A DNA stretch of 39,397 nucleotides from Pseudomonadota bacterium. GTDB lineage: Bacteria > Desulfobacterota > Desulfobulbia > Desulfobulbales > Desulfocapsaceae. Every line of letters begins with the position of its first letter. The stretch's first letter is position 1. The notes under the pieces are model-generated. The model made no database searches and was not told the origin of the DNA. It saw nothing but the letters and a program-made list of their open reading frames with translations. Position numbers and translations under genes: made by a program. This document shows, one piece after another, positions 1,825 to 36,996 of this stretch. Where the stretch lies: the NCBI GenBank assembly GCA_018821785.1, contig JAHJLI010000262.1:1-39397 (forward strand). Direction: 5' to 3'.

Positions 1825-1840
1825 AAGCAATCATTGTACC
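1825..1840 (-). promoter_or_regulatory. Sigma-54 promoter of the PagL-like gene
   Basis: Minus-strand TGGTACAATGATTGCT has the invariant GG, ten bases, then GC of a -24/-12 element. It lies 113 bases before the ATG and its GG is 102 bases from the tandem palindrome at 1941-1971. Confidence 0.8.
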
Positions 1841-1940
1841 AATTTTGAATTTTAAATATCACATCAGGCAGCATTCTGATTTATATTGATATATGGCAAA
1901 ATTGAATTGTGTTGGAGGCAGTTAATCGCCAAACAATATT

Positions 1941-1971
1941 GGTTGTATTTAACCAATGATCATATGTGGCC
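1941..1971. promoter_or_regulatory. Tandem 14-bp palindromes: enhancer (UAS) of the sigma-54 regulon, copy 1
   Basis: GGTTGTATTTAACC (1941-1954) and GATCATATGTGGCC (1958-1971) are separated by 3 bases. Both match the consensus GGTYANATATGACC found eight more times in the window. The site points to the PagL-like gene. A weaker GG-N10-GC element at 2056-2071 on the plus strand (GG 86 bases away) could be a divergent promoter, but no convincing gene follows it. Confidence 0.8.
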
Positions 1972-2124
1972 ATAGATTAACTATGATTTTTTTATATCTT
2001 GACCACTATAATGCTGATTGAGTAGCAAATTTTTGAGAGGAGTGAAAAATATTGTTGGCAAAATATAGGCTGATATAAAAATATGGATCTTGCTGTGATC
2101 ACAAAAAGAGAAAAATCAGTGGCT

Positions 2125-2243
2125 ATGTACGGTTTTGTTCGAGCATTGAAGATCATTGGCGAAACAGTTGTCAATGGTCAGAATGCTAAAGGATACAAGA
2201 TGTCATGGAACGGCTATACGTTGCATCTGAATACAAACGATAT
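2125..2243 (+). pseudogene. Possible transposase scrap
   Basis: The plus-strand frame reads GYKMSWNGYTLHLNTND. This resembles the 'KxxWxGYKLHLDVxDxGIP' region of IS5/IS1182-type DDE transposases. Nothing upstream or downstream in this frame extends the similarity, and the right end meets the ric/scdA remnant near 2240. No terminal inverted repeats were seen. The identity rests on one short motif. Confidence 0.35.
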
Positions 2244-2347
2244 CGGTTTTCCTCCACAGCAGAAGTCTATCCCGTGATCCTCAAAGACCTGGCGATCCGA
2301 AAGTCCTTAGCGACGATTTCGCCGATTGTTCTTTTTGACTCGTTCAT
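2235..2347 (-). pseudogene. Remnant of ric/scdA/ytfE (iron-sulfur cluster repair protein), frameshifted and truncated
   Basis: A ribosome site GAGGTGA precedes ATG 2345-2347, which starts a peptide beginning MNESKRTIGEIVAKDFRIA. Its frame then breaks near 2290. In the neighbouring frame the sequence continues as VFEDHGIDFCCGGKP. Joined, these are the N-terminal ScdA domain (DUF542) of the di-iron Ric/ScdA/YtfE proteins, including the diagnostic GIDFCCGG. The hemerythrin-like domain is absent. Homology stops near 2240, where the plus-strand transposase-like scrap begins. Ric proteins repair iron-sulfur clusters after nitric-oxide or oxidative damage, so this copy has lost that function. Confidence 0.75.
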
Positions 2348-2472
2348 TATCTTCACCTCATTCCCCCTGGCTTTTACCGTCTCGATTCTTTGGTCGGGTA
2401 GTTTTGCACTCTCTTTAGATGCAATAAGCCAGGAGGTTTACGATTAAATAGTCTCTGAGCTTCTCTCAAACA

Positions 2473-3042
2473 TCATATAGCTTCATAGGAAAATTTCTGT
2501 CCTCCGAGTGAAAGCTCATACATGAGCCCGCCCATCGAATGCACGAAGGTAATCGTTCCTTTGAAATACTTGGGATTGGCTTGAACATCAGACTTTGGCC
2601 CGGCACTTGCGCCGGCACTGACACCCGTGGTTCCGCCCTGTACTTCGGCTCCCACCGTTACAGCGATTGCCTGAGCAGTAGCGTCGAACTCAAAGTTGCC
2701 GCTGATGAATTCATCGTAAGCGCTTTTGTCCTTAAAAAAGATTATCTCACTGAACGCCTTACCGCCAGCCTGGAAGCCTATTGAGCCCTCAATAACCGAT
2801 GATTTTCCGGTTGCCTTGCCACCGCGATAAACCTGTCCAACCCCGTAGGAGCCACCGACTACAAAGCCAGCCTTGCCAATAGTTGGAAAGACGGCATAAC
2901 CGTAGGCGGTCTTGAAGTATTCTGCAGGGATGGGTGAATCTCGAAACACATTTATGGTGCTCGAATAGTCCTCAGCTGCAGCAGCGAAGGTCGAAATACC
3001 GAAAACTAAAGCGGCGATGACTAATAATGCTAATTTTTTCAT
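2473..3042 (-). CDS. Exported YSC84/SYLF-domain lipid-binding protein
   Basis: A 189-residue protein with a clear signal peptide (residues 1-22, ending in AAAAE). The SYLF domain covers almost all of the mature part: 'AYGYAVFPTIGKAGFVVGGS' near 46-65, a glycine-rich SIGFQAGG segment, and a C-terminal stretch near 160-185. SYLF/YSC84 domains bind phosphoinositides in eukaryotes; bacterial members are periplasmic or outer-membrane associated with no settled role. An AGGAG lies 7 bases before the ATG. The gene follows two other small genes on the same strand (lipoprotein, DUF302) but with a 217-base gap, so cotranscription is only possible. No sigma-54 site was found directly upstream. Confidence 0.88.
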   Translation of the reverse strand: MKKLALLVIAALVFGISTFAAAAEDYSSTINVFRDSPIPAEYFKTAYGYAVFPTIGKAGFVVGGSYGVGQVYRGGKATGKSSVIEGSIGFQAGGKAFSEIIFFKDKSAYDEFISGNFEFDATAQAIAVTVGAEVQGGTTGVSAGASAGPKSDVQANPKYFKGTITFVHSMGGLMYELSLGGQKFSYEAI

Positions 3043-3259
3043 TCATGCACTCCTTTTTAATGTTATGTGTTTTTATCAAAAGATGATTCCGATTATTTGC
3101 ACCTTATCTGTTCAGCATAGAAGCCCTCCATTCTTCTAGAGTTAGTATCTTTCCTAAACTTTTGCATACCTGTTGTTGTTTCCAGAAAGGATCAATGAAA
3201 AACAACGGAGCAATGTCGCACATCACCTTGACTACTTATGAATTCATAGGCCCGGCCAA

Positions 3260-3649
3260 TTATCCTCCTGTCGCTTGCTTCATGATTGCAATAATGGAGT
3301 CTTCAACTTCCTGGTCCGCCTTGGGCAGTTGCGGAGCATCAAACATCGCAGCCAAAAGTGCGGTAGGCCTTAAGGTCGCCAAGACCGTCCTATCATCTTC
3401 CGTGTAGACAAATATCCGGCAGGGAAGCACAGTAAAGATGCTGACGTTCTGTTCAGAAGCCTTTCCATCCTGCTGGATCTGACCAACCTCGAAGACCATA
3501 CATTGACGAACGAACTCCACTCCATGTTTTGTCATCAGTTCTTGAATGTCGTGAACCTGAACGATGTTGAAACGATGGTTTGGTACGGCAAGCGTCAAGG
3601 CAACCACAACTTCGGGAACAGTCTTGACGGTTGAAAATTTGATCAGCAT
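3260..3649 (-). CDS. DUF302 family protein (copy 1)
   Basis: 129 residues starting at MLIKFSTVKTVPEVV. The longer in-frame start at 3736 is rejected because AAAAGGAGAAAC stands directly before ATG 3649. DUF302 proteins are small alpha/beta proteins of unknown function, often near envelope or sulfur genes. Here the typical elements are an N-terminal beta strand, 'FNIVQVHDIQELM', 'FEVGQ', a central 'LPCRIFVYTEDDRTVLATLRP' region and a C-terminal helix. No signal peptide is visible. A second copy lies at 4338-4724, and the two are clearly paralogous along their length. The lipoprotein gene ends 97 bases upstream, so both probably share the sigma-54 promoter at 4144-4159. Confidence 0.85.
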   Translation of the reverse strand: MLIKFSTVKTVPEVVVALTLAVPNHRFNIVQVHDIQELMTKHGVEFVRQCMVFEVGQIQQDGKASEQNVSIFTVLPCRIFVYTEDDRTVLATLRPTALLAAMFDAPQLPKADQEVEDSIIAIMKQATGG

Positions 3650-3745
3650 GTTTCTCCTTTTATGTTTGAGATTCTTTTCTTTTTTGGGTTTGCTAGTAAC
3701 AATCAATGAGCTTTTGCAAGTTGCGGAAGATACCAATGACCTGAA

Positions 3746-3961
3746 CTACTGTGCTCGATAATCATTTCCTGAATCCCTGTAGAAATATTGACTCCCACTC
3801 CTATCATGTCCGTCACCTTTACCATGTCTCTCTCCCCTGTCGTGTCTCTCACCCCTATCAGGCCGTTCACCTCTGTGACGATCGGGAAAATCGAGATAAC
3901 ATCCGCTAAGAGAAACAAGAACAATTATTGACAATAACCCCAATACACTGGTTTTTTTCAT
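3746..3961 (-). CDS. Small lipoprotein with charged RGER/HDRG repeats
   Basis: 71 residues from ATG 3959-3961. A lipoprotein signal (MKKTSVLGLLSIIVLVSLSGC) ends in the lipobox LSGC, so Cys21 would be lipidated. The mature part holds three to four imperfect repeats of the type RGERxD/H (residues about 27-50), very rich in Arg, His, Asp and Gly, then an aromatic tail with QYFYRDSG. The upstream in-frame ATG at 4042 is not used in this call because the signal peptide begins at 3961. It is the first gene after the sigma-54 promoter 4144-4159. A His/Asp-rich, unstructured, membrane-anchored peptide could bind metals or polyanions, but no function is known. Confidence 0.65.
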   Translation of the reverse strand: MKKTSVLGLLSIIVLVSLSGCYLDFPDRHRGERPDRGERHDRGERHGKGDGHDRSGSQYFYRDSGNDYRAQ

Positions 3962-4143
3962 TTTTATATCAAAGACTCCAATACCGTGGCAGGTATGTGC
4001 TTTTGCCGAATCGGCGCCAATCTTTGCTTTATAAACTCCCAAGAAGTCCTCACCAGGCGGACAATTTCAAACAGCCGTGGTGAAAATGGCGGCCAGAAAT
4101 CATCCAGCGAGAAGAATTGTGTTACGGTTATAACCTGAGATGC

Positions 4144-4159
4144 TTCAAATATTGTGCCA
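4144..4159 (-). promoter_or_regulatory. Sigma-54 promoter before the lipoprotein/DUF302 genes
   Basis: Minus-strand TGGCACAATATTTGAA has a perfect -24 half (TGGCAC) and a TTG -12 half with GA in place of GC. Its GG is 100 bases from the enhancer pair at 4258-4288. The leader to the lipoprotein ATG is about 170 bases. Confidence 0.7.
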
Positions 4160-4251
4160 GCTCTAAATATTCCATTAGTTACCAGCTATCATACTGTTTT
4201 TATGTGTTATATGTAAAAACAGACACGTGCCGATGTGCTCAAAAAACACCT

Positions 4252-4294
4252 GGAGATGGTCAAATATGCTCGGTGGGCATATTTGACCATCTCC
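4252..4294. promoter_or_regulatory. Enhancer pair, copy 2, inside a perfect 18-bp inverted repeat
   Basis: GGTCAAATATGCTC (4258-4271) and GGGCATATTTGACC (4275-4288) show the 17-bp offset of the other copies. In addition the whole element is a perfect 18-bp inverted repeat (4252-4269 and 4277-4294) around a 7-base centre. It lies between the end of DUF302 copy 2 and the sigma-54 promoter at 4144-4159. As RNA it would form a strong hairpin and could also end transcription of the phosphoketolase operon, but no T-run follows. Confidence 0.8.
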
Positions 4295-4337: not shown

Positions 4338-4724
4338 TCAGCCCGAGGTCGCTTGCTTCATGATTTTGACGATAGTGTCTTCCACTTCCCGAGCCGAACC
4401 TGCCAACTGAGGAGTATCGAACATCGCCAGCAGTGTGGTTGGTTTTAAGGTTGCCAAAACGGTTTTGCCGTCCTCCTGGTAAATGGAGATTCGACATGGC
4501 AACGCAGTAGAGATGCTCATGTTCTGTTCGAGAACTTTCTTCGCCTGTTGCGGCTGACAGACTTCAAAGACCAAACATTCACGGGTAAACTCTACACCCT
4601 TTTTGATCATGCTCTCTTTGAGGTTATGAACCTGCATGACGCCAAAATGGTTGGCTGGAACAGCAAGCTGCAAGGCAGCCGCAACTTCAGTTACGGTTTT
4701 GTCGGTGGAGAATTTTATCAACAT
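4338..4724 (-). CDS. DUF302 family protein (copy 2)
   Basis: 128 residues beginning MLIKFSTDKTVTEVA. A GAGGG ribosome site lies 7-8 bases before ATG 4722-4724, so the upstream ATG at 4766 is not chosen. It is closely similar to copy 1 at 3260-3649 over its full length, sharing the start MLIKFST, the LPCRI centre and the KIMKQAT C-terminus. It follows the phosphoketolase gene by 102 bases on the same strand and may be the last gene of that operon. Function is unknown; no signal peptide or membrane segment is seen. Confidence 0.85.
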   Translation of the reverse strand: MLIKFSTDKTVTEVAAALQLAVPANHFGVMQVHNLKESMIKKGVEFTRECLVFEVCQPQQAKKVLEQNMSISTALPCRISIYQEDGKTVLATLKPTTLLAMFDTPQLAGSAREVEDTIVKIMKQATSG

Positions 4725-4826
4725 GATTTTCCCTCTTATGGTTGAGATTGTATACCTTTGCGCCAAGCGGTTATCTGTTGGCGTGGGATATCACCTTCTT
4801 TCCAATGGTTATCCTCTTAGTCCCTC

Positions 4827-7184
4827 TTACCATTTCCAGTTCAGTATCTCCGGCATGTCCTTACCGTATTTGTAAATATACAGTTTGTGGAGGATGAGCT
4901 TGTCCTTTATTGTCCTTTTCAGCGTGTCGCCATCTTTGCCCAACTGTGGCAGCCGATGGAGCACATCCAGCACCAGGTGAAAGCGGTCCAGATCGTTTAA
5001 GACCGTCATATCGAAAGTCGTGGTAATGGTTCCTTCTTCCTTATAGCCTCGCACATGCATATTGTCGTGGTTGGTCCTGCGATAGGTTAACCGATGAATC
5101 AGCCAAGGGTAGCCATGAAAGGCAAAGACGATTGGTTTATTTTGGGTGAAAAGCGCATCGAAGTCCTCATCACTCAACCCGTGCGGATGTTCGCTTGGCG
5201 GCTGCAGCTTCATCAAGTCGACAACATTGATCACCCGGATTTTCAAATCAGGCAGAGCTTCGCGGAGAATGGATACAGCGGCAAGAGTCTCGAGCGTCGG
5301 CACATCGCCGCAACAGGCCATCACCACGTCCGGCTCCATCCCCTGGTCGTTGCTAGCCCAGTGCCATACGCCGATTCCCTGGCGGCAATGGGCAACCGCT
5401 GCGCCCATGCTCAACCATTGCGGCGCCTGGTACTTACCGGCGATGACAACATTGACATAATCCCGGCTCCGCAGGCAATGATCCCAGACCGACAGCAGGC
5501 AGTTAGCATCGGGTGGCAGGTAAACACGAACAATTGACGCCTTTTTATTGACAACGTGATCAATGAAGCCGGGGTCTTGATGGGTAAAGCCGTTATGGGC
5601 CTGTTGCCAAACGTGGGAGGCAAGCAGGTAATTGAGCGAGGCGATTTTCCGGCGCCACAGCAATTCTGCGGTGATTTTCAGCCACTTGGCGTGCTGATTG
5701 AACATTGAATCGATGATATGAATAAAGGCCTCGTAGCTGGTAAGCAGCCCGTGTCGACCGGTGAGCAGATACCCCTCAAGCCAGCCTTCGCATTGATGTT
5801 CGGAGAGCATCTCCATTACCCTGCCATCCGTTGCCAGAAACTCATCATTCTCTTCTGTCCTGGCCTGCCACTGTCGGTTGGTGACCTCAAACACTGCGTT
5901 CAAACGGTTGGAGAGGGTTTCGTCGGGGCCAAAGATGCGGAAATTTCGCGCTTCCTGGTTGAGCTTGATGACCTCACGAAGAAATTCCCCCAGCACGTGG
6001 GTATCAGCGGCCTGGACTGATCCCGGTGTAGGTATCTCTACCGCGAAACTCTGAAAGTCGGGCATAGTCAGATCGCGCAGCAAAACACCACCATTGGCGT
6101 GCGGATTGGCGCCCATCCGCCGATCGCCCTGTGGTGCCAGCTCGGCCAGTTCCGCTATCAGCCGGCCATTTTCATCGAACAATTCTTCCGGCCTGTAGCT
6201 CTTCATCCAATCTTCCAGCAGCCGCAGATGCTTGGGATGCGCCGCATCCGCTAGAAGCGGCACCTGGTGCGCGCGGAAAGTACCCTCTATTTGCCGGCCA
6301 TCGACTACTTTCGGGCCGGTCCAGCCCTTGGGTGAATTGAGAACGATCATCGGCCAGCGCGGCCGGGAGGCATCGTCATTCTCCCTGGCATTGGTTTGAA
6401 TCTGCCTGATATCGACAATTGCCTGCTCCAGCACCGCTGCCATGAGCTGATGCATTTTTTCCGGTTCATCGCCTTCAACAAAGTAGGGAATCCAACCGTA
6501 ACCGCGCAGCAACTGGTCCAATTCTTCATGGGTGATGCGCGCCAGCACGGTTGGGTTGGCTATTTTATAGCCATTGAGATGCAGGATAGGCAGCACCGCA
6601 CCATCGGTAATCGGATTCAAAAATTTATTGGAGTGCCATGCCGTAGCTAAAGGGCCGGTCTCCGCCTCACCGTCACCGATGACGCAGGCAACGATCAGAT
6701 CCGGATTGTCGAACACGGCGCCGAAGGCATGGCTCAGCGAATATCCGAGCTCGCCCCCCTCATGAATTGATCCCGGGCACTCGGGTGAGACATGGCTGGG
6801 AATGCCGCCGGGGAAAGAGAACTGGGTGAAGAGTTTTTTCAGACCGTCCTCGTCCCGACTGATATCCGGGTAAATCTCGCTGTAGGTACCTTCAAGATAT
6901 GTGTTTGCGACCAACGCCGGACCGCCATGGCCTGGGCCAGAAATATAAATCATATCAAGATCATACTTGGTGATTACCCGATTCAGGTGCACATAGATAA
7001 AATTCTGGCCCGGGGTCGTGCCCCAGTGGCCGAGAAGTGTCGGCTTCACGTGTTCGAGCTGCAATGGTTCCCGCAGCAACGGATTGTCGTAAAGGTACAT
7101 CTGGCCGATCGCCAAATAATTGGCGGCACGCCAGTAGGCATCCATCTTGCCGAGTTGTTCCAGGGAAAGGGCTTCTGTCTGCAT
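4827..7184 (-). CDS. xfp: Xylulose-5-phosphate / fructose-6-phosphate phosphoketolase
   Basis: 785 residues, close to the usual 790-820. The enzyme uses thiamine diphosphate to split xylulose-5-P (or fructose-6-P) with phosphate into acetyl-phosphate and an aldose phosphate. Visible family motifs are [10 protein letters not shown] (50-59), GPGHGG (83-88), [17 protein letters not shown] (about 123-139) and the diphosphate-binding GDGEAETG (170-177). The C-terminal half has the expected length. The start at 7184 is chosen because AGAAGGAGAA lies just before it; an in-frame ATG at 7229 would overlap the end of glgP upstream and lacks a ribosome site. It lies 50 bases after glgP in the same operon, which suggests that glucose-1-P released from glycogen feeds this shunt and gives acetyl-phosphate. 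Confidence 0.95.
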
Positions 7185-7234
7185 GGTTCTTTTCTCCTTC
7201 TCTTTGTTTGCTTGCTTTTGACCTGACATGCTCT

Positions 7235-9763
7235 TCACCGCTGCCACAGGATTCGTGTATCTTCAAGGGGAATTGCTATTCCAGCCGAATTTGCGATCAT
7301 TCGTACCGTATACTCCTCCGGTGACCGCTCCGCAGAGACAGCCGCGATGTAAATAGTGGTGCCCGAAGTGGCATCAGAAAAGCCATATCTCTTCATCTCC
7401 TGCCGTACCGGTACACCACCGTTTATTGCATCGGCATACAACTCTATCCGCACTGTCGTCGGATCAAGGCCGGCAAGAAAGACATGAACCTCATAGTTAT
7501 GCTGTATTCCAAGAGTCTCGACCTTCACCTCACCGAAGTGCAGTGTGGCCCATTTCTGATCCAATACATGTTGCCAATCGACGATCTGCCTGCCAATTGC
7601 ACCTTTGCTCTCAGTGCGCAGGCGATAGGCGGCAGCGGCGGGAAGATAGTAGTTCTCGGTGTACTCACGCACCGCACGGTTGGCGGAAAATTGTGGCGTC
7701 AGGAGCGCCATACTTGCCCGCATCCGATTGACCCAAGCGATAGGAATACCATTCTCGTTTCGGTTGTAGAACTCCGGGATCACCTCCTGCTCAAGCAGGT
7801 CGTAGAGTGCATAGGCTTCCTGGACGTCCCATGCCGGATCATCGCCATGCTCCTGACTATCCCCCAATGCCCACCCCACCTCGGGAGTGTAGGCCTCGGC
7901 CCACCAACCGTCCAGTTCAGAGAGATTGAGCCCTCCGTTGACAAGCACCTTCATGCCGCTCGTACCGCATGCCTCCCAGGGACGACTGGGCGTGTTGATC
8001 CAGACATCGACCCCTTGCACCAGCTGCTCCGATAACAACATGTCGTAGTCGCTCAGAAAGACGATATGGTTGCGAATCTCCGGTCGGCGGCTGAAAAGTA
8101 TCCATTCATGAATCAGTGCCTGGCCTGCCTGGTCTTCCGGATGGGCCTTACCGGCAATGACCAGTTGCACCGGACGCTCAGGATTGGTGAGCAGGCGAAG
8201 CAGGCGGTCAGGATCATGCAAGAACAGGTTCGGTCTCTTGTAGGTTGCAAAACGACGGGCAAATCCCAGCGTTAACACACCGGGATCAAAGATTTCTTGC
8301 GCTATCTTCACCACCTCGGACGATGCGCCGGAGATGGCCAGTTGCCGAAACGATCGCTCCCGAACATGCGCTACAAGAGACTTGCTGGCGGCGAGGCGAA
8401 AATGCCAGAGCCTGGCATCGGAAATCTGGTAAATGTCATCTTTCAGGGTTTTCACTGTCCCCAGCCAGCGGTCCTTGCCGCAGGCCTCCGTCCAGAGATC
8501 GTCGGCCTCTGCCGAATCCCAGCTCGGCGTATGCACTCCGTTGGTTATATGCCGGACAGGTACTTCATCCACCGGCCATTGGGGGAAAAGAGGGGCAAAG
8601 AGATGACGGCTGACTTTGCCGTGCAGGCGACTCACGCCGTTCACCCACCCACTCCCCCGGATTGCCAAATAAGCCATATTGAATTTTTCCGACTCATCGT
8701 CTGCATCTTTGCGGCCGAGAGCCAGCAAGTCGTGGAGGGCTATTCCAAGCTTTTGTTCGGCATAGCCCTCAAGATATTGGGCGATCAGAGCCGGCGAGAA
8801 ACGATCAAAACCCGCGGCCACTGCCGTGTGAGTAGTAAAAAGATTACCGACTCGGGTAGCAGCCAGTGCAACCTCGAAGGGCTGTCCGGCTTTTTGCATG
8901 AAACTTCGGGCGCGCTCAAGCACGGCAAAGGCCGCATGCCCTTCGTTCAAATGACAAACTTCCGGTTGAATGCCAAGTGCATCCAGCAGTCGCCAACCAC
9001 CGATACCAAGAAGCATTTCCTGCTTGAGACGCAGTTCCGGCCCACCGCCATAGAGCTCGCTGGTAATGCCCCGATGTGCTGGGTAGTTGGCCGCATCGTT
9101 GCTGTCCAGCAAGTACAGCTTCACTCTGCCGACCTGAACCTGCCAGGCGCGCAGCCAGACAGAATACCCCGGCAAGGCAATCTCCAATCGCAACCACTCG
9201 CCGTTCGCCTGACGCAAAGGGGTGATCGGCAGCTGACCGGGATCGTTATAGGGATAGAGGGCCTGTTGCACACCATCTTTATCGATCACCTGGCGAAAAT
9301 AACCCTGCTGGTACAAGAGACCGACACCAACCACCGGCACACCCAGATCACTTGCCGTTTTCAACTGGTCCCCGGCGACATTGCCAAGTCCGCCCGAATA
9401 GATCGGCAAGGCCTCGCTCAACATGAATTCCAGGCTGAAATACGCAACGCAGGTCAAGGGGTTTGGCTCGTGATGCTGCTGAAACCAGGCAGGCACCTTC
9501 CCCTCCTGCCGCCTGGTCTGCACCTGGATGTCGACATTTTTACGAAAAACCGGATCGGTCAACACTTCCTTTATCCGGTCTCGCGACACCGTCTGCAGGA
9601 CAACCCACGGATTATGGGTGATTTCCCAGAGTTTTGCATCAAGCTGCCGCCATACTTCGTCGGTGGCATGATCCCACGACCAGCGCATATCCAGAGCCAG
9701 CTCGGCGAGAGTATCAAACCCTTCAATTTCCGTGGGGATAAGAGTATGTTTGGCATTTGTCAT
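7235..9763 (-). CDS. glgP: Alpha-glucan (glycogen) phosphorylase
   Basis: 842 residues. It releases glucose-1-phosphate from alpha-1,4-glucans using phosphate and pyridoxal phosphate (GT35). The N-terminal 110 residues match the DUF3417 domain typical of the bacterial 'short' phosphorylases ([20 protein letters not shown]). The pyridoxal-phosphate motif [15 protein letters not shown] is at 597-611, with Lys605 as the expected Schiff-base lysine. [11 protein letters not shown] (122-132) is the conserved substrate-site glycine loop. The ATG at 9763 fits the family's usual start; a GTG at 9787 overlapping the oleate hydratase stop codon is an alternative and would couple translation. It is the middle gene of oleate hydratase-glgP-xfp, downstream of a sigma-54 promoter. 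Confidence 0.95.
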
Positions 9764-9783
9764 GGCAATCACTGCCTCACCTT

Positions 9784-27717: not shown

Positions 27718-27740
27718 AGGACTATCTTGATTAATTTAAG

Positions 27741-28416: not shown

Positions 28417-28447
28417 AGGTCATATTTAACCGATGGTCATATATGAT
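28417..28447. promoter_or_regulatory. Enhancer pair, copy 7
   Basis: GGTCATATTTAACC (28417-28430) and GGTCATATATGATC (28434-28447), spacer GAT. Lies 24 bases downstream of the PRC-barrel stop codon. Confidence 0.84.
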
Positions 28448-28471
28448 CTTTTCCTGGTACAGTGCTTTATT

Positions 28472-28988: not shown

Positions 28989-29351
28989 TTACACTTCACC
29001 CAACCACTTCCGCGCCTCAGCACCATCGACGTGATCAAAGTATCTGACAGTCGCTTTCGTGAAAGGCTTGCAGAATATCGCCATGCCATGCTGCCACCTC
29101 TCTTCTCCAACCATCGCCAGACGCTCGATGCTGCCGAAGTGTTTCATGCCGAATTTAAAATCCTCCCAGGCCGCACTCAACTCCCAGCCGTGAAAAGCGC
29201 TCATATCGAACAGCACACGCAATTTTCCGTGTTGTTCGATAAGTCGTTCGAACTCGGGTACTAAGTATTCATAATCCGCTTTTTCCAACTTGCCGCTGAC
29301 GTGAATGGCGAGCACCTCACCACCGTTTACTTCTGTGACTTGAATAGCCAT
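28989..29351 (-). CDS. SpoIIAA-like (STAS domain) protein
   Basis: 120 residues from ATG 29349-29351, chosen because AAAAGGAG stands just before it; the in-frame ATG at 29471 has no ribosome site. The family hallmark is a STAS-type fold: VLAIHVSGKLEKADYEYLVPEF, LFDMSAFHGWE, then a C-terminal WQHGMAIFCKPFTKATVRYF region. Proteins of this group resemble anti-sigma factor antagonists and lipid-binding SEC14-like folds, but no phospho-serine motif is obvious. It lies 131 bases after the small membrane protein gene; a truncated paralogue is at 23083-23382. Confidence 0.88.
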   Translation of the reverse strand: MAIQVTEVNGGEVLAIHVSGKLEKADYEYLVPEFERLIEQHGKLRVLFDMSAFHGWELSAAWEDFKFGMKHFGSIERLAMVGEERWQHGMAIFCKPFTKATVRYFDHVDGAEARKWLGEV

Positions 29352-29482
29352 TTTAAACTCCTTTTGAGTGTGTGGTTGCATGATTTCCCCGACCTTTTTA
29401 CCCCATTGCTCAAGGTTCGCTTCATCCGCGTCAATATCGCAGGTGGGAGAGGAAGACACTTTGGTGAACATATTGTGCGAAG

Positions 29483-29731
29483 CTACATTTCATAAAGCGA
29501 TGATAGGTAATTCCGGATGCCCAAGAGATCTTTGCCAAGGGATCTATCCTGTGTATCGCCGCTCGCTGTCAACGGAATATCTGTAATATCTGTCTGTTGG
29601 CTGGTGGACAAGGTGCCGAGCATGAAAAAAAAGATGATAACACCTATATAGACAACAATGAGGATACTCCCTGCATCGCCCCGATATGCTTTACTTTCGG
29701 ATGTTTCAAATTTGTATGCCTTTGATTTCAT
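29483..29731 (-). CDS. Small single-span membrane protein of unknown function
   Basis: 82 residues. One transmembrane helix (about 23-43, with [20 protein letters not shown]) separates a short basic/polar N-terminus from a 39-residue tail rich in Thr, Asp and Ser. It starts 9 bases after the AAA/TPR gene stop, with only a weak ribosome site, so it is probably translationally coupled to it. An N-terminally deleted copy is present in block A at 23639-23835, which supports its being a genuine gene. I do not recognise a family. Confidence 0.6.
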   Translation of the reverse strand: MKSKAYKFETSESKAYRGDAGSILIVVYIGVIIFFFMLGTLSTSQQTDITDIPLTASGDTQDRSLGKDLLGIRNYLSSLYEM

Positions 29732-29740
29732 GTTTTCATT

Positions 29741-32700
29741 TTATAGATTATCTAATTTCTCATATTCCTTTTTTTCACACTCCGGACAGATGCCATGACT
29801 GAACTCAGCACTTGAATGCTCGGCAATATACATTTCAACCCCATGCCAGTATCCCCTGTCATCCCTGATCTGTTTACACCATGCGCATATCGGCAGCAGG
29901 CCGGTTAATTGTTTGACCTCGGCCAGGGCATCCTGAAGCGCTTTATTGTTCTTTTCGAGTTCTGAAGAAAACCGTCGCAATTCTTGTTCAGCCTGCTTGC
30001 GCTCGGCGATCTCCACCCGCAGCCGTTGCAAAGCATCCGCCAGTTCATCGGCCTGCCTTGCCGACTCAACCCGCAGACTGGTCTGCTGCATCTGGGTTGC
30101 ATACCTGCGGAGGTGTGTGATCTGTCTCTCCACCAGAAGATTTTTGCTCTCGTATTCCGGTATCTCGCCATCTCTTTCGGCTCCATTACCATCATGAAAA
30201 GTTTCCACAAGGTTTTCCCGGTAAGCCGTTTCCATTGAGTGCACCTTGGCAACACCACCCCATCGGCTATAACAGACATAGGCCTGTTGCCAGTAGTTTT
30301 GGGCCATACGCTCACTTCCGAAACCCAGCCAAAAGTTGTACGCCCGTTCATTGGCCATGCCTTCCCACTGCAGAAAGCCGCCTTTCTGAGCTGCTTCCAC
30401 AGCATTGTCATAGAGCTGCATGGCATCAACCGGTCTGCCATCGATCCTGGCCAGTTCTGCCGCAGCCAGCAGGTATTTATGCCCATAATTCTCGGGGCAG
30501 TTGTCAGCCCAGATACGCAGCCTGGCGATAGCCCCTTCAAGTTCAGTGCGCCAGGTTGTTTGCCGGTTCCCATCAGCTTTTGTATAGAGCGCTGTGAGAA
30601 TCAAAAGGCGCGCGAAAACATGCTCGGGCCAGGGCAGGAGCCCCTGTGTTCCCACCGTGTACATGAGCGGTTCACTTTCGTCCGACACCACCAGGGCCCC
30701 TTCATAATCGCCGGACACCAGAAGGGAAAACGTTTTTAACACTTTGTAAATACATGTGACCTGGATATTCTGATGATCCTTGACCTGCTGCAGAAACGTT
30801 TCCTCCGACCAGGCGTCATTGGTGTTTACGGCGGGACGTTCGGCAGACAATACGCCAAACACCTGCAGCCCTGCCTCCAACAGGTCAATCGCCCATTGGT
30901 TGTGACGTGTCCGGCTGAATTCCAGGGAACGCTTTGTCTCCCGTATCAGGTCTGCCAGGGAGACACCCTGGTAGAACCGGCAGTACATGTTGTGCCCGAA
31001 GGCATACGCGGCGTATTGCAGATTGCCCGACAGCAACCCGATTTCGTAGGCATCTTTATAATCCTGGGTGCTGTATTTGAGATGTTTAAACCAGTGCCGT
31101 ATCGAGCTGCCGATCATCAGATAAAAGACGCTCTGATCTGACGGGGACCGGAACATGGTGGTCATAAGACGAGTCGCCAGCTCCCCAAACTCCCTTGCCG
31201 CAACATAATCGTCATCGACCCATCCCAGCAGCCCACCGAAAGCCGTGTGGCTGTACCCAACCTCGTCAATGTTACCGTAACGCAGCGTCAGATTCACCAC
31301 TTTGGGGACAAGCACGGCCCAGAGTCGCTGATGCGAGCGGTAGCAGGGTGGTCCCAAGGTGATAAGAATTTTCGAGGCCATGAGCATCTCGGGATCGCTC
31401 ATCGGAGGCAGCCCGACCAGCGAGGAAATCGTGCGGCTTTCCAGCGCCTGCCGCACCAGTGCGATCTCGGCATTGCGCGCCTCTTCGTAGCCGTCAACAG
31501 GCAGGCTGATGCCGAGCGCCTCCAGTGCCAGTCGTCCCGCCGCAATAGCCTCACCATACCGCGCCAGTAAGGTATATTGAACGATACGAAGGGTGAGGGC
31601 GCCTGCCTGTTCGAGCGCTGATTCAGCATGCGCCACGGCCTGTTGAATACACTCTTCGGCCTCATCCTTGCTGCCCTCGAGGAATTCACATTCAGCCCGT
31701 CCTTTGAAAAGCTCCATGGCCGAATCGTGGTGATCGCGCCACAGGTGATCGGCAAAAACTGGGTTTTCTAGAAAACGATTTGCGGCTCGGTAAAACTGCA
31801 GCGCTGCAGAGAAGGCCACAGCGGCGTAGGCCTTACGCGCAGCAATGATATTCAATTGAAGGACTTTCAGTTGTTCTGCTGGTTCCTGGATCAGTGGGTA
31901 CCCGGCATTCAGGTTGTTCACCACCTCGAACAAGCGCTTGTCGAGCTGTTCCACACCAAGACTGGCAAGCAGGAGCCTGCCGATCTTCAGCCGAATGGCT
32001 GGAAGCTCTGCAGGTGCTAGCAAACCATACGCTGCCTGCTGCACCCGGTCATGCAGGAATGTACCCGTCCGGGGGGAGGCAGGAGCCCCTGCAGAGGCGA
32101 TCGAACTGCCACCGTCATAGGGCAGGAGCAGGCCCGTTGCCTGCTGGGAGAACAGCAGCGTCAGGCACTCCTCGAGAGTCCGGCCGCTGATCATGCTCAG
32201 GATATCCAGATCAAAGCTATTTCCCAGGCAGGCGGCCAAGGAGAAAAGATTGCGGCTATCGGTATCAAGAATCCCAAGTTTCAGGGCAAAGAGTTCGAGG
32301 ACAGTGTCGGGCAGGGTCGCCCCGTCGATTATCCCATTGCGCCATTGCCAGCAGTTTCTGTCCTGGTCAAACCAGATCAGTTTGAATTCGTGGAGAAAAT
32401 TGATAAGCGACCGGACAAAGAATGGATTGCCGCGGGTTTTTTCATAGATCATCAGTGCCAGTCCTGCACTCTCTTCAACCACCGGTATCAGGGTGTCGGT
32501 AACAATCTCCCTTACATCATCGAGGGCGATATTTTTCACCTGAAGGAGTTCAACAGGAACAGCATGACTTCGAAGATCATCTATCATAGACAGCAGCGGA
32601 TGGCCGGGTTTCACTTCGTTATCGCGGTATGAGACGATTACAAGTAGATAGCGCAATGTAGACCCGATCTCCATCTGTTTGAGCAGTTCAAAGGATGAGG

Positions 32701-33220
32701 TTCCAGCCCATTGCCAGTCATCGATAAAGAGTGTCACGGGACGTTCGGGTTTGCAGATGACCTTGAGCAGGTTGCGAAAAACGCCGGCAAAGCGGTACCT
32801 GGCTTCCTGTGGACTGATGTTTTCCAGAGGTGGTTGAACTCCTAGAAGTGTCTCGAATTCCGGAACCGTATCAATCAGCACCTGACCAAGATTGCCGATG
32901 GCCGAAAGAATATCGACCTTGAAGTGTGAACGGTACTTCCCGGACAGTAACTCGCAGCAGAGTTCGGTCAGTGCCTGCCGAAAAGCGAAATAGGGGACAT
33001 TATGCTGGTATTGATCAACCTTTCCCTGGATGAAAATACCGTTTCTTTTCAGTACCGGCATCCGCAGCTCATGCACCAAGGCCGTTTTTCCAACTCCGGA
33101 AGGACCCGGAACCAATAAAACTTCGCCATGACCGCTGCTGACCCGCTCAAATGATTCCAGCAATCGGTTTATATCACGGTCCCGACCATAGAGTTTGCTG
33201 GAAATCGTCAGGTGTTCCAT
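29741..33220 (-). CDS. Large signalling ATPase: AAA/STAND-type domain, TPR-like region, coiled coil and C-terminal Cys motif
   Basis: 1159 residues. The N-terminal ATPase has Walker A GPSGVGKT (39-46) and Walker B TLFIDD (163-168), as in predicted STAND/MalT-like ATPases that accompany Ser/Thr- and histidine-kinase modules. A long alpha-helical, TPR-like region follows (about 430-1000), then a coiled coil (about 1015-1105). The protein ends in the motif LPICAWCKQIRDDRGYW ... HGICPEC, with Cys1112, 1115, 1145 and 1148 as a possible metal site; this tail is common after PAS domains of sensor proteins. Unlike the full-length multi-domain family, there is no protein-kinase, GAF or histidine-kinase domain. 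It follows the histidine kinase by 75 bases and probably receives or relays its signal. Confidence 0.82.
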   Translation of the reverse strand: MEHLTISSKLYGRDRDINRLLESFERVSSGHGEVLLVPGPSGVGKTALVHELRMPVLKRNGIFIQGKVDQYQHNVPYFAFRQALTELCCELLSGKYRSHFKVDILSAIGNLGQVLIDTVPEFETLLGVQPPLENISPQEARYRFAGVFRNLLKVICKPERPVTLFIDDWQWAGTSSFELLKQMEIGSTLRYLLVIVSYRDNEVKPGHPLLSMIDDLRSHAVPVELLQVKNIALDDVREIVTDTLIPVVEESAGLALMIYEKTRGNPFFVRSLINFLHEFKLIWFDQDRNCWQWRNGIIDGATLPDTVLELFALKLGILDTDSRNLFSLAACLGNSFDLDILSMISGRTLEECLTLLFSQQATGLLLPYDGGSSIASAGAPASPRTGTFLHDRVQQAAYGLLAPAELPAIRLKIGRLLLASLGVEQLDKRLFEVVNNLNAGYPLIQEPAEQLKVLQLNIIAARKAYAAVAFSAALQFYRAANRFLENPVFADHLWRDHHDSAMELFKGRAECEFLEGSKDEAEECIQQAVAHAESALEQAGALTLRIVQYTLLARYGEAIAAGRLALEALGISLPVDGYEEARNAEIALVRQALESRTISSLVGLPPMSDPEMLMASKILITLGPPCYRSHQRLWAVLVPKVVNLTLRYGNIDEVGYSHTAFGGLLGWVDDDYVAAREFGELATRLMTTMFRSPSDQSVFYLMIGSSIRHWFKHLKYSTQDYKDAYEIGLLSGNLQYAAYAFGHNMYCRFYQGVSLADLIRETKRSLEFSRTRHNQWAIDLLEAGLQVFGVLSAERPAVNTNDAWSEETFLQQVKDHQNIQVTCIYKVLKTFSLLVSGDYEGALVVSDESEPLMYTVGTQGLLPWPEHVFARLLILTALYTKADGNRQTTWRTELEGAIARLRIWADNCPENYGHKYLLAAAELARIDGRPVDAMQLYDNAVEAAQKGGFLQWEGMANERAYNFWLGFGSERMAQNYWQQAYVCYSRWGGVAKVHSMETAYRENLVETFHDGNGAERDGEIPEYESKNLLVERQITHLRRYATQMQQTSLRVESARQADELADALQRLRVEIAERKQAEQELRRFSSELEKNNKALQDALAEVKQLTGLLPICAWCKQIRDDRGYWHGVEMYIAEHSSAEFSHGICPECEKKEYEKLDNL

Positions 33221-33295
33221 AGTGTGCCTTTTGTCTTGAATATTGTTTAGATAAGATGCTGTGCCATACCGCCGAAAAGCTTCTCACCTTTAAAG

Positions 33296-36200
33296 TCACC
33301 TATCTAGAATCTCCCTCACCTTTATGAGAAGATCTTTCGACTGAAACGGTTTATGGATAAAGTCAAAACCGGTCTCCATTACTTCTTTGGCCTTGACAAC
33401 ATCCATTGTGTAACCGCTGGTTAAAAAAATTTTCATCCCAGGACTGATTTTTTTGATCGCCTCACTGACCTCTTTGCCGTTTTTCTTCGGCATTATCATA
33501 TCAAGCAGGACGATATCAATCCGGTCACTGTTTTTCTTAAATTTTTCAATAGCCTCATCACCGTCCTCTGCCATTATTACCTCATAGCCAAAGGACTCCA
33601 GTGTTCTTCGTATGAATTTTCTGAGCGAGGCGTCGTCCTCAGCCACAAGGATAGTCTCATTTCCCCCTTTGATGGAAACAGCGGCCTTTTCCATTTTTGA
33701 AGCGGATACAGCTTCCCCACAAAGTGGCAGGAGTATCTTGAACACCGTACCATCCCCGGGTTCGCTGTAGACCTTGATGTATCCGTCATGCTGTTTAATG
33801 ATGCCGAAGGAAATTGCCAAGCCAAGGCCTGTCCCTCGTCCAATCTCTTTGGTGGTAAAGAAAGGTTCGAAGATATTTTTCTGTGTCTCCTTATCCATAC
33901 CCTGCCCGGTATCGGCGACAGTAATAAACGCATACGTCCCGGGCTTGCCATAGCCATAGGCTGCAGCATAGTTATCATCGACTTCCACAAGGCCTGTGCT
34001 TATCGTCAACCATCCACCCTCCGGCATGGCGTCCCTGGCATTTGCGGCAAGATTAATCAGAACCTGCTCTATCTGCCCAGCGTCAGCCGGCACTATCAAG
34101 GGCTGTTTTGTCAGGTTCAGAGTGAGATCAGTACTCTCTCGGACAATTTGTTTAAGCATTTTCTGCAGGTTTCGGAGAAGGTCGTTGAGATTAATGGGCA
34201 CTACTGCAATAACCTGTTTTCTGCTGAAAATAAGCAATCTTGCAGTAAGATCCACGGCCCTTTTAGCGGCAGTGATCATCTCCTTCATATCTTCCCTTGC
34301 AGGACTCCCGGCCTCCAGATCATCCATGACAATTTCGCCATATCCCATGATCACACTCAGGATGTTATTGAAATCGTGGGCAATACCCCCTGCCAGGGTG
34401 CCTAACGCCTCCATCTTCTGAGAGTGATGGAGTTGGGCCACAAGATTTTTTTGTTCGGTAATATTGTCGAATACGACAATAAAGTGATGTTTTTCATAAG
34501 TGTAGGCGGAGACACTTCGCCATCCGCCCATGGACTCTGTATAAGTTTCAAACCGTTCCGGGATGCCGGTCGAAATCACCCTGCTGTACACACCCAACAA
34601 CTCCGGGTTCGACTCATGAATAGTGGGGATTATCTCACTGATTTTCTTGCCTTTGACATCCTTCATGCCGGTCAGCTGTTCAAAGGCTTTATTGACCTCG
34701 AGATAGATAAAGTCGTACGGATTTCCATCTTGATACACCATTTTGCAATAGGCAACGCCTTCAAGCATATTGTCGAATAAATAGTGATATCGCTCTTCGA
34801 TCAGCCGCAGCGCCGATTCTGCCTCAGCATGGGCGGCACGTTGCCTTAAAGTGGCGATGCCGTACGATAAATCTGCGGCCAGATCACTGAGCAGCTGCAC
34901 TTCGTCTTCGGAAAATGGACATCGGTGTCTGGAATAAATGTTGAGAGAACCGAAGGCCTCGCCCCTCTCCAGAAGAGGGACACCGATCACTGCGGCATAT
35001 CCCCTCTTGACGGCATTTTCACGCCAGGGTGCAAATGCGGGAATGTCGCTGATAGGCTGAAAAACTGCAGGTTTCCCCGTTCTGATTGCCGTACCGACAG
35101 GCCCCCGGCCTCGTTCCGTGTCCGTCCAGGTAATCTTGGCCGTATCGAGATAGCCTTCGTCACCACCTGCCTGGGCCACCGGTCGCACGGTTTTACCCTC
35201 ATCCTGCTCCGCCATTCCAATCCAGACCAAGGCATGGCCGCAGTCTTCGACAATGATCCGGCAGACCTCATTGAGATACCCTACCTCGTCCTCGGCACGT
35301 AACATGGCCTTACTGCTATGACTGCGCGCCAGTAATGTCCTGTTCAGCCTCTGGATAGCCCCTTCTTTTCTTTTCCGATCGGAGACATCGCGAATATTGC
35401 ATTGCGCCACCTTTGCCCGGTCAACCAGATATATGTCCGTCCAGATATCTTCCCCTGCCTTGGTTTTTGTCGGAACATCCTCATAGTTCAGAATGCCCTG
35501 CCTGTCCAGAGACTGCATCATCCCGGCAAAATCACTGGTGTCGAGCGCGACACCCATAGCCCTCAGACTTTTCCCGAGATACTCGACCTCGGAATACCCC
35601 AACATTGTCTCGGTCGCCAAATTGGCTTTAACGATATGCCCTTGCCCTTTTTCAAGAAGTACTATCCCGTCACTTGCGGTCTCAAAAATACGTCGATAGC
35701 GCTCTTCGGAATCTGCAAGCAAGTTTTCTAGTTGCCTTCGCTCGGTGATGTCCTCGATAGCCAGAAGAATGATCCGCTCCTCGCCCAACCTTCGCTTTAT
35801 TTGCCGGGCATTGAGCAGCATGATGCGCCTGCCGATGGTGGCAAAATCGTGTTCCACCTCATAGTCATCAAAGCTGGTTTTTTGGGGTAGGATGGTTTCC
35901 AGCAGTTCCCTCAGTCTTGGGATGTCCCACTGTTTATTGCCCAGGTCATAGACAAGCTTCCCCACGGTCTCTTCAGGTTTTACCTTGAAAAAGTCATAGA
36001 ATGAACGGCTGACGGTGATCACCCTGAGATCTTGATCCAAAGAAATCAAGGGTTCGCGCACGGTATTGATGACGCTGTCCGCGAATTCATGGGCTTCATC
36101 CGCGAATTTTTTAATAACCTCCAGTTCTTTTCGCGTCTTTTCAATGCCTGCTTCAGTCTCTTTGCGCTCGGTGATGTCCTCTATGGCCAGCAGGATGATC

Positions 36201-36547
36201 CGCTCCTCGCCCATCGCTCGCTTTATTTGCCTGGCATTGAGCAGCATGGTGCGTCTGCCGATGGTGGCAAAATCGTGTTTGACCTCATAGTCATCAAAGC
36301 TGGTCTTTTCGGGAATGATGGTTTCCAGCAGTTCCCTCAGACTGGGGATGTCCCACTGTTTATTGCCCAGGTCATAAATAAGCCGCCCCACAGTCTCTTC
36401 AGGTTTTACCTTGAAAAAATCATAGAATGAGCGGCTGACGGTGACCACTCTGAGATTTTGGTCCAGCACCAATAAGGGTTCACGCACAGTGTTGATAATG
36501 CTCTCGGCGTAATCTTCAGATCGTGTGATGTCTTCTCCGTTGATCAT
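33296..36547 (-). CDS. PAS/GAF hybrid sensor histidine kinase with receiver domain
   Basis: 1083 residues, no membrane segment, so probably cytoplasmic. Order: two near-identical PAS-type domains (14-131 and 156-271, period 142 residues), a third PAS (about 277-395), GAF (about 400-570), a fourth PAS (about 580-700), HisKA with GGIAHDFNNIL and phospho-acceptor His724, HATPase with NLAANARDAM (832-841), ADTGQGMD and GRGTGLGLAI, and a C-terminal receiver with Asp1016 in VLLDMIMPKKNG and the LTSGYT/HKPF residues. No output domain or partner regulator is encoded nearby. It begins the set HK-AAA/TPR-membrane protein-SpoIIAA-like-PRC. Upstream is a decayed stretch with a sigma-54-like promoter and an enhancer pair. 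Confidence 0.93.
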   Translation of the reverse strand: MINGEDITRSEDYAESIINTVREPLLVLDQNLRVVTVSRSFYDFFKVKPEETVGRLIYDLGNKQWDIPSLRELLETIIPEKTSFDDYEVKHDFATIGRRTMLLNARQIKRAMGEERIILLAIEDITERKETEAGIEKTRKELEVIKKFADEAHEFADSVINTVREPLISLDQDLRVITVSRSFYDFFKVKPEETVGKLVYDLGNKQWDIPRLRELLETILPQKTSFDDYEVEHDFATIGRRIMLLNARQIKRRLGEERIILLAIEDITERRQLENLLADSEERYRRIFETASDGIVLLEKGQGHIVKANLATETMLGYSEVEYLGKSLRAMGVALDTSDFAGMMQSLDRQGILNYEDVPTKTKAGEDIWTDIYLVDRAKVAQCNIRDVSDRKRKEGAIQRLNRTLLARSHSSKAMLRAEDEVGYLNEVCRIIVEDCGHALVWIGMAEQDEGKTVRPVAQAGGDEGYLDTAKITWTDTERGRGPVGTAIRTGKPAVFQPISDIPAFAPWRENAVKRGYAAVIGVPLLERGEAFGSLNIYSRHRCPFSEDEVQLLSDLAADLSYGIATLRQRAAHAEAESALRLIEERYHYLFDNMLEGVAYCKMVYQDGNPYDFIYLEVNKAFEQLTGMKDVKGKKISEIIPTIHESNPELLGVYSRVISTGIPERFETYTESMGGWRSVSAYTYEKHHFIVVFDNITEQKNLVAQLHHSQKMEALGTLAGGIAHDFNNILSVIMGYGEIVMDDLEAGSPAREDMKEMITAAKRAVDLTARLLIFSRKQVIAVVPINLNDLLRNLQKMLKQIVRESTDLTLNLTKQPLIVPADAGQIEQVLINLAANARDAMPEGGWLTISTGLVEVDDNYAAAYGYGKPGTYAFITVADTGQGMDKETQKNIFEPFFTTKEIGRGTGLGLAISFGIIKQHDGYIKVYSEPGDGTVFKILLPLCGEAVSASKMEKAAVSIKGGNETILVAEDDASLRKFIRRTLESFGYEVIMAEDGDEAIEKFKKNSDRIDIVLLDMIMPKKNGKEVSEAIKKISPGMKIFLTSGYTMDVVKAKEVMETGFDFIHKPFQSKDLLIKVREILDR
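35735..36508. repeat. 426-base tandem duplication inside the histidine kinase gene
   Basis: The stretches 36155-36508 and 35735-36082 are highly similar at DNA level (for example the shared 'GCCGATGGTGGCAAAATCGT'). They encode the first two PAS-type domains. The high nucleotide identity, with mostly silent or single changes, indicates a fairly recent duplication. Confidence 0.85.
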
Positions 36548-36625
36548 TATCTGCCTCTTTTTAGTTTTTCAGATCTGAGTCATGCAATCGCTATAACCGG
36601 AAGCTCAATGAAAAAGGTTGTCACG

Positions 36626-36655
36626 CTACCTTGAAGTTTTTGTTTTGATCAGCAT
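36626..36655 (-). pseudogene. Start of a PRC-barrel gene, broken after nine codons
   Basis: AGAAGGAGTACC and ATG 36653-36655 followed by codons for MLIKTKTSR and TAG. This repeats the leader and first residues (MLINTKT) of the PRC-barrel gene at 28472-28825. The preceding 30-40 bases (GTTCTTTGAGGTT, TTTTTTATGC) also match that gene's upstream region. Confidence 0.6.
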
Positions 36656-36690
36656 AGCGGTACTCCTTCTGTTCTTTGAGGTTGATTTTT

Positions 36691-36858
36691 TTATGCGCTG
36701 TTGGTGCTCAATTGATAACGGGTTTGGAAACTCTGTCTCATGGTGGTCTGCACCGACCACACCGTATTCTCAATGGTAGCTTTGGTGTCATGGGTCAGAT
36801 GAGGATTGACCTCCAGACTGACATTGCCGTCTTGGCCGTTGGTCTGAAATAAACCTAT
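36691..36858 (-). pseudogene. Transaldolase fragment
   Basis: A minus-strand frame without a start codon reads LFQTNGQDGNVSLEVNPHL then THDTKATIE. This matches the first conserved block of transaldolases of the Tal / Tal-Pgi type ('DGxVSLEVSPxLAxDTxxTIxEA'). Thereafter it diverges into a tail ending at TAA 36691-36693. Only about 30 residues are recognisable. Transaldolase acts on the same sugar phosphates as phosphoketolase, so a pentose-phosphate gene once stood near this promoter. Confidence 0.7.
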
Positions 36859-36873
36859 GCATTTATTCAGCCA
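36858..36873 (-). promoter_or_regulatory. Possible sigma-54 promoter of the decayed locus upstream of the histidine kinase
   Basis: Minus-strand TGGCTGAATAAATGCA keeps GG, ten bases, GC. The match is weaker than the others and the enhancer is 93 instead of 100-104 bases away. It overlaps the start of the transaldolase fragment. It could still transcribe the histidine kinase gene 311 bases downstream. Confidence 0.5.
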
Positions 36874-36964
36874 AACACTAAATACATTACCTATCTCATT
36901 GTTTATTAGGAATTATTTCAAATTACTGAAAGGGCAAGGCAGGAGGTAACGGCCCCACACAAAT

Positions 36965-36996
36965 GGTCATATTTGCGAAAGTGGTGATATGCGACC
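36965..36996. promoter_or_regulatory. Enhancer pair, copy 8 (intergenic to glgB and the histidine kinase)
   Basis: GGTCATATTTGCGA (36965-36978) and GGTGATATGCGACC (36983-36996), spacer 4 bases. The outer flanks form an inverted repeat ACACAAATGGTC/GACCATTTGTGT. It sits 28 bases after the glgB stop codon. Confidence 0.72.

Follow-up and report, generated by a model that had tools for sequence, protein, structure and literature searches.

The DNA analysed here, a stretch of 39,397 nt from a member of Desulfocapsaceae (contig JAHJLI010000262.1 of assembly GCA_018821785.1; hereafter the window, called C315 in the genome scans), carries eight operators made of paired 14-bp palindromes, together with nine −24/−12 (sigma-54) promoters at an almost fixed distance from them. 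The operator, the rigid operator-promoter cassette and the clade of sigma-54 activators that goes with them are well supported at the level of sequence. The gene content strongly suggests that they belong to an island-borne, sigma-54-driven, general-stress-like regulon. With a probability of roughly 0.75, the best explanation would be that an enhancer of this activator clade, a bend resembling that of integration host factor (IHF) and sigma-54 promoters together drive such a regulon.

Eight pairs with an offset of 17 or 18 were found in the window with a symmetric palindromic matrix, the scores ranging from 18.0 (36965) to 40.2. They are listed below without strand, and promoter distances run from the inner operator edge to the promoter GG.

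1941..1971, operator 1: offset 17, score 32.6, promoter at 101 bases
4258..4288, operator 2: offset 17, score 31.5, promoter at 100
11601..11632, operator 3: offset 18, score 40.1, divergent promoters at 101 (minus) and 104 (plus)
15758..15788, operator 4: offset 17, score 37.9, promoter at 102; poor IHF-like box (7/10)
17244..17274, operator 5: offset 17, score 39.3, promoter at 103
23075..23105, operator 6: offset 17, score 38.1, promoter at 102
28418..28448, operator 7: offset 17, score 40.2, promoter at 102
36965..36996, operator 8: offset 18, weakest score 18.0, promoter at 93

An earlier, sequence-only reading of the window had placed these eight pairs correctly, the sole shift being from 28417 to 28418. 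It had also counted a ninth, degenerate copy at 15860, which was rejected as a full operator: only its second half is good (15877-15890, 11/13), the first being poor, and no promoter lies at the expected distance. The count is therefore eight pairs and nine promoters. Scans of the window for tRNA and Rfam families returned nothing informative.

In the whole source genome (5.47 Mb, 315 contigs), a search for the 17-offset pair with up to three mismatches gave 30 rows corresponding to 17 places, and the reversed-pattern control gave none. Sixteen of these places lay on contigs C315, C132, C97 and C125, and the remaining, weak one on C241. When offset-18 pairs, sought in the fetched contigs (the same four and part of C241), were included, the genome total came to 20 operators scoring at least 20, plus the one at 36965. 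Mono-shuffled versions of the same contigs yielded 0.7 pairs per replicate (offsets 13-23, cut-off 12). Operators had an offset of 17 or 18, and the few matches at other offsets each overlapped one of these operators. C241:38717 and C132:9402 were discarded as operators, having no promoter scoring at least 8 near 102 bases. The matrix built from the source genome was then applied to relatives, whose regions were fetched because the operator or the activator was present there; across relatives, the reversed pattern matched four times among 57 genomes when up to three mismatches were allowed, and not at all among 93 genomes (up to two) or 395 genomes (up to one). Three palindromes in a row, at 17- or 18-bp spacing, were seen in some relatives (L134:652, L139:6773 and L124:5479).

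The promoters were scored with a hand-weighted sigma-54 matrix, as follows.

1826..1841, minus: promoter of operator 1, score 15.4
4144..4159, minus: promoter of operator 2, score 14.2
11486..11501, minus: leftward promoter of operator 3, score 15.2
11735..11750, plus: rightward promoter of operator 3, score 13.5
15642..15657, minus: promoter of operator 4, score 12.9
17376..17391, plus: promoter of operator 5, score 14.3
22959..22974, minus: promoter of operator 6, score 10.9
28302..28317, minus: promoter of operator 7, score 10.9
36858..36873, minus: promoter of operator 8, weak (8.7), the weakest together with its operator

The distances first reported for the window (102, 100, 101/104, 102, 103, 102, 101 and 93) were correct within one base. 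A −24/−12 element scoring at least 8 was located at 98-106 bases from 19 of the 20 operators scoring at least 20 in the source genome, the exception being C132:41676, 149 bases from operator C132:41856. For the regions fetched from 14 relatives, the figure was 68 of 80 operators. Over all 15 genomes, the proposed scan of the genome and its relatives found a promoter at 98-106 bases for 87 operators out of 100; random positions of these sequences had one there in 52 cases out of 4000 (1.3%). Among the 13 exceptions, ten were displaced by one helical turn, with the promoter at 89-93 in six and at 113-116 in four. The 16 promoter distances outside 98-106 (range 75-135) were phased with a period of ca. 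11 bases (R 0.69, approximate p 5e-4), which fitted best among the four periods tried. Pairs scattered at random without promoters, an outcome named beforehand as refuting, did not occur, and the proposal of a sigma-54 regulon with one operator is strongly supported. A chance origin of the operator set is excluded by the reversed control, the shuffled sequence and the promoter-distance null.

The distribution of the operator followed that of one group of activators. Among 57 relatives, 16 had an activator homologue scoring at least 590 bits and none of the rest exceeded 451. All 16 carriers had operators (14 by the 17-offset search, G026 and G027 by offset-18 pairs), and seven of the 41 non-carriers had one matching place each. 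The sole non-carrier match examined for promoters, in G001 (84% complete), seems genuine: a promoter lies 103 bases away on either side. When 93 family genomes were divided at a 500-bit line, scoring the best 16 activator candidates per genome, 27 had both, 3 the activator only (two of them G026 and G027), 7 the operator only and 56 neither (Fisher p 8e-14, uncorrected for kinship); the pattern was patchy within the genus. In a 62-row tree, the 26 activators from operator-bearing genomes or loci made up one side of a branch (support 100/97) and had the helix L[DNE]RSTLRARM in common. The neighbouring branch (G008, G022) reads LKRSTLRAK, and neither genome had a 17-offset match at up to two mismatches. 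No pair reaching a score of 17 was present in 78 loci of other activators (1.17 Mb of the genome collection).

Beyond the family, seven of 395 phylum genomes had a match at up to one mismatch, four of them from outside it. Five of the six out-of-family places were examined and all five had a promoter at 99-105 bases. The named carriers are a Desulfobacteraceae metagenome-assembled genome (L153, promoter at 103) and Desulfosarcina sp. Hel50_75_bin69 (L154, promoter at 101), each with an operator. The first gene under the operator, judged by eye, was CsbD-like in G419 and ABM-like in G473. In the single-contig genome G019, eight operators were found within 2,420,242-2,463,231, an interval that also takes in each of the 11 rows returned when the whole genome was searched for the 17-offset pair. 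No tRNA was detected at the island borders in four G019 pieces; three pieces of G017 and G000 held four tRNAs, none tied to an island edge.

The source genome has 52 matches to the sigma-54 activator domain, two of which lie among operators on C132 and none on C315, C97 or C125. These two correspond to the following genes.

C132, 5103-6620: PAS-AAA+-helix-turn-helix (HTH) activator, between operators 4976 and 6738
C132, ~9596-11116: receiver-AAA+-HTH activator, adjoining a five-PAS hybrid kinase

The PAS-type protein matched PF00158 (Sigma54_activat AAA+) at 237.7 bits and PF02954 (Fis-type HTH) at 29.1 bits, and the receiver-type protein at 238.1 and 37.5 bits. The GAFTGA loop reads GSFTGS in the PAS type, the FTG core being kept; variants such as GSFTGA are tabled in the accessible part of PMC4641369. 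The hybrid kinase beside the receiver-type activator has five PAS stretches, two receivers and an Hpt domain. Leftward from operator 20169 (C132), an 85-aa open reading frame (ORF), CheB-CheR-PAS, a RelA/SpoT-domain protein, the hybrid kinase and the receiver-type activator follow one another with gaps of less than 100 bases. The receiver-type activator is therefore probably under the operator, and since it ends this operator-led gene run, it probably amplifies its own synthesis. A similar order (operator, 1618-aa ORF, 213-aa ORF, activator) was observed in G031. The common operator regulon of the sequence-only reading stands, but its single coordinating activator was set aside, since the receiver-type paralogue is 80% identical to the PAS type over residues 140-506 and falls in the same clade. 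Judging from these sequences, two paralogous enhancer-binding proteins with nearly the same DNA-binding end, one PAS-type and one receiver-type, likely read the operator. The 405-aa RelA/SpoT-domain protein (L048:15680-16894, C132) belongs to the gene run of the hybrid kinase and the activator and might provide a link to alarmones. CheB-CheR-PAS (L048:16833-19658) and a stand-alone CheB (L054:13070-13681) are also downstream of operators.

The genes downstream of the window operators, from ORFs called with a simple script, were as follows.

1179..1712, minus: PagL-family lipid A 3-O-deacylase, first gene under operator 1 (PF09411, E 3e-17)
1-918: oleate hydratase (PF06100), truncated by the contig end, ~260 bases beyond PagL
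3260..4042, minus: 98-aa ORF and DUF302 gene (PF03625), operator 2
2473-3042: weak Ysc84-like gene (PF04366 below cut-off), ~220 bases beyond the DUF302 gene
4338..11358, minus: operon of oleate hydratase, glycogen phosphorylase, phosphoketolase and DUF302 (PF06100, PF00343, XFP, PF03625), operator 3 leftward
11778..12311, plus: 177-aa protein, operator 3 rightward; no Pfam match, poor AlphaFold model (pLDDT 38)
12467..12610, plus: CsbD-like gene downstream of the rightward promoter (PF05532, 54.1 bits)
12654..15556, minus: PLD-VTT fusion and Exo_endo_phos gene, operator 4
17400..19145, plus: second oleate hydratase (PF06100, E 2e-153), operator 5
22386..22841, minus: ZraP-like protein copy 2, 88% identical to copy 1, operator 6
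23733..28190, minus: ZraP-like copy 1, PPK2, coenzyme A ligase-GNAT protein and 104-aa ORF, operator 7
28989..36547, minus: PAS-GAF hybrid histidine kinase, 1159-aa AAA_16 protein, 82-aa ORF and SpoIIAA-like protein, operator 8

The oleate hydratases, glycogen phosphorylase and phosphoketolase, PLD/VTT, PagL and DUF302 genes of the earlier target list were recovered. Its ZraP-like call found no sequence support, including in a sequence search of solved structures, and the fold support is weak (Foldseek ranks 1-6 are ZraP, with probabilities of 0.91-0.99 and E of at least 0.33). The set proved wider than that list, with BON, CsbD, YflT, DnaJ, DUF5670, SpoIIAA-like, PRC-barrel, PPK2 and the RelA/SpoT-domain proteins; in the genome as a whole, operators also precede kinase, CheB, cytochrome-c-like, AAA and OPT transporter genes. 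All three BON-domain ORFs of the genome (7 matches) come first or second after an operator, one of them relying on a promoter at 114 bases, and two of the three CsbD genes are downstream of operators. A trehalose-synthesis-like gene and a MarR gene on C132, past the first genes of operator 4976, may belong outside the regulon.

Several features of the source genome stand beside these targets. The twin genes at 22386-23105 and 27741-28448 (88% protein identity) have near-identical promoters and operators, so a recent duplication inside the regulon is indicated. The oleate hydratase at 1-918 covers profile positions 3-303 and contig C191:3-599 begins with positions 298-495; from these complementary pieces, the two contigs are probably neighbours. 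Just past the last operator, 37025-39148 encodes an alpha-amylase-type protein with CBM48, probably a glycogen branching enzyme. On C125, between operators 12372 and 30676 (~14.8-28 kb), some gene starts resemble an extra ATP synthase, by eye only.

In relatives, 119 of the 120 listed downstream ORFs (one 520-aa ORF of G035 was omitted) included 8 receiver, 7 BON, 5 ABM, 4 DsrD, 3 superoxide dismutase and 3 CheR proteins, and an NCBIfam search of the target pool was dominated by response regulators. A second pool of 43 mostly small proteins, which overlaps the first (7 from the source genome, 31 from relatives and 5 from other families; 38 chosen by eye from 61 ORFs, plus those 5), contained 7 BON, 4 DUF5670, 3 DsrD, 3 CsbD and 2 ABM, with one each of SpoIIAA-like, DUF3309, DUF3096, LTXXQ, Transgly_assoc and DUF883. 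CsbD was present in 9/9 carriers versus 1/6 non-carriers among 15 genomes hand-picked from the 16 carriers and 41 others. BON, CsbD and small membrane-type proteins are common in RpoS, SigB and EcfG regulons, and in other bacteria such stress regulons are usually run by a dedicated stress sigma factor. None of 57 genomes had an RpoS above the cut-off, compared with one of 14 controls, in a search that covered RpoS but not SigB or EcfG. DsrD is known from the dissimilatory sulfite reductase locus; DsrD-like proteins under an operator in three genomes (L122:14432-14671, L135:12186-12425 and L146:16104-16343) hint at a second role for DsrD paralogues.

The same gene content bears on the most serious alternative, namely that the sigma-54 regulon of this activator clade serves a narrow response to oxygen and to envelope or lipid damage. 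The oleate hydratase, PagL, PLD-VTT, ZraP-like fold and superoxide dismutase families downstream of operators would suit it, but glycogen phosphorylase, CsbD, YflT, DnaJ, PPK2, RelA/SpoT-domain and SpoIIAA-like proteins are non-envelope genes, and we regard this narrower response as a tentative alternative.

A third element, missed in the sequence-only reading, was found at a fixed place between enhancer and promoter. De novo motif search in the 103 operator-linked promoters scored, whose −24/−12 elements lie upstream of genes, returned a 22-base motif starting at −51/−50 from the promoter GG in 83, with the core WATCAG-NNN-GATR. Scored as WATCARNNNGWTR, a consensus derived partly from the same promoters, the box matched at least 8 of 10 positions at −45 to −38 in 81 of 103 promoters, and in 0 and 6 in two control windows; within the source genome, it was present in 19 of 21 promoters. 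At long-spaced promoters, the box kept its usual distance from the promoter in four of five, and among eight short-spaced ones two had it in the usual place and two one turn nearer, including that of 36965. The boxes in the window are given below.

1869..1881, minus: operator 1, 9/10 consensus positions
4187..4199, minus: operator 2, 9/10
11529..11541, minus: operator 3 leftward, 9/10
11694..11706, plus: operator 3 rightward, 9/10
17335..17347, plus: operator 5, 10/10
23003..23015, minus: operator 6, 9/10
28346..28358, minus: operator 7, 9/10
36892..36904, minus: operator 8, 9/10 at −32, one turn nearer the promoter than usual

We read the spacer box as a putative IHF site. The E. coli IHF consensus, quoted as WATCARxxxxTTR in the accessible text of PMC3897727, matched 8 or 9 of 9 positions anywhere in the spacer of 46/103 promoters, compared with 20.7% of shuffled spacers and 43/366 other sigma-54-like sites. 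That the box is instead the site of another protein or an intrinsic bend is suggested by the A that replaces the first T of this E. coli consensus in most copies, as well as by a match rate only about twice the shuffled one. The WATCAR core, the AT-rich upstream flank, the fixed midway position and 12 HU/IHF-family domain matches in the genome argue against this, as does the requirement of the Desulfovibrio vulgaris orp promoters for IHF (PMC3897727, accessible text), and we consider a non-IHF box unlikely.

It is very improbable that some other protein binds the palindromes while the activators merely share the island. Palindromes of this size also suit repressors; however, the distance to the −24/−12 promoters is rigid, and the operator distribution closely matches one activator clade and its recognition helix. 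A last reading takes the repeats for recent duplicates of a single promoter cassette that have no regulatory meaning. The near-identical twins at 23075 and 28418 (operator, promoter and first gene) would fit it, but it is hardly credible, as the operator-promoter stretch is little conserved outside the box and its flank (over 90 promoters) and the module is present in 15 genomes.

Several observations weigh against the general-stress-like regulon under this activator clade. Targets vary between genomes, oleate hydratase being found in only 5/16 carriers, one of them a fragment (three non-carriers gave weak partial matches just over the cut-off, at 23-25 bits), and the kinase and transporter targets are not typical stress genes. 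Seven of the 93 genomes had a 17-offset match but no activator above 500 bits; completeness is 59-84% for four of these, and the G032 match seems accidental, but G062 is 100% complete and G111 95%. In G084 an activator scored 503 bits, yet the 17-offset search returned nothing. As for the box, the twofold excess over shuffled spacers is modest, and four of the eight short-spaced promoters had no box at either place.

From the computed operator, spacing, spacer box, clade, co-occurrence and target list, binding, bending, activation and a stress signal may be pictured as follows. The palindrome pair would be the enhancer of a small sigma-54 activator clade, comprising the PAS type and its receiver-type paralogue, with two adjacent activator dimers occupying the 31-32-bp operator. 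The fixed operator-promoter stretch would be bent by an IHF-like protein, and the activator hexamer would then touch the sigma-54 polymerase at the −24/−12 element. The targets would make up a regulon of general-stress type in bacteria whose lineage has no recognisable RpoS, and the receiver-type activator would probably feed back on its own synthesis. Sigma-54 requires ATP-driven activation and is silent without an activator; a sigma-54 general stress response would therefore be inactive by default, with phosphorelay or ligand as its only switch. We would give even odds to the fullest form of this proposal, a complete sigma-54 general stress response in which PAS-sensing and phosphorelay-fed sister activators act on a rigid operator-IHF-promoter cassette, regulator and targets being gained and lost together as an island in one family of RpoS-less sulfate reducers. 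How RpoS-less anaerobes run a general stress response becomes testable in this way, since the operator is defined, both activators are named and the targets are listed. The naturally occurring spacings (~91, 102 and 113) also lend themselves to work on how helical phasing and bending affect enhancer looping.

No description of the operator or of such a regulon was found in the literature covered, largely without subscription papers and without figures. Enhancers of NtrC, ZraR and NorR are palindromes ca. 100 bases upstream of −24/−12 promoters; here the sequence differs, the pair is only 17-18 bp apart and the promoter distance is almost fixed. The RpoS, SigB and EcfG responses have overlapping target types (BON/OsmY-like, CsbD and small membrane proteins) but are led by a dedicated sigma-70-family factor, unlike the sigma-54 and AAA+ activator here. 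The nearest precedents are DVU3305 and CbrB. According to the accessible text of PMC3333781 and PMC4641369, DVU3305 of D. vulgaris is likewise a sulfate reducer's sigma-54 response regulator, tied by its authors to general stress. It acts on the operon that contains it, which also encodes a lon-protease-type regulator, on an adjacent operon carrying UspA-type genes and on two more targets, and its loop is GAFSGA, compared with GSFTGS here; going by the text of these papers, loop and partner genes set the two apart. In the accessible text of PMC3897727, DVU2106/orp of D. vulgaris resembles the cassette proposed here in that a single region combines palindromic sites for the activator with sigma-54 promoters and functional sites for IHF, but it is one divergent operon pair, whereas a regulon is found here. 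CbrB of Pseudomonas putida is a sigma-54 activator whose direct targets number at least 61 genes; it shares with the present proposal a clustering of subsites and the placing of IHF between the enhancer and its promoter. Its subsites, as described in the accessible text of PMC6296734, are non-palindromic, 20-25 bp apart and relaxed in sequence, unlike those of the present operator, and its cue is carbon limitation.

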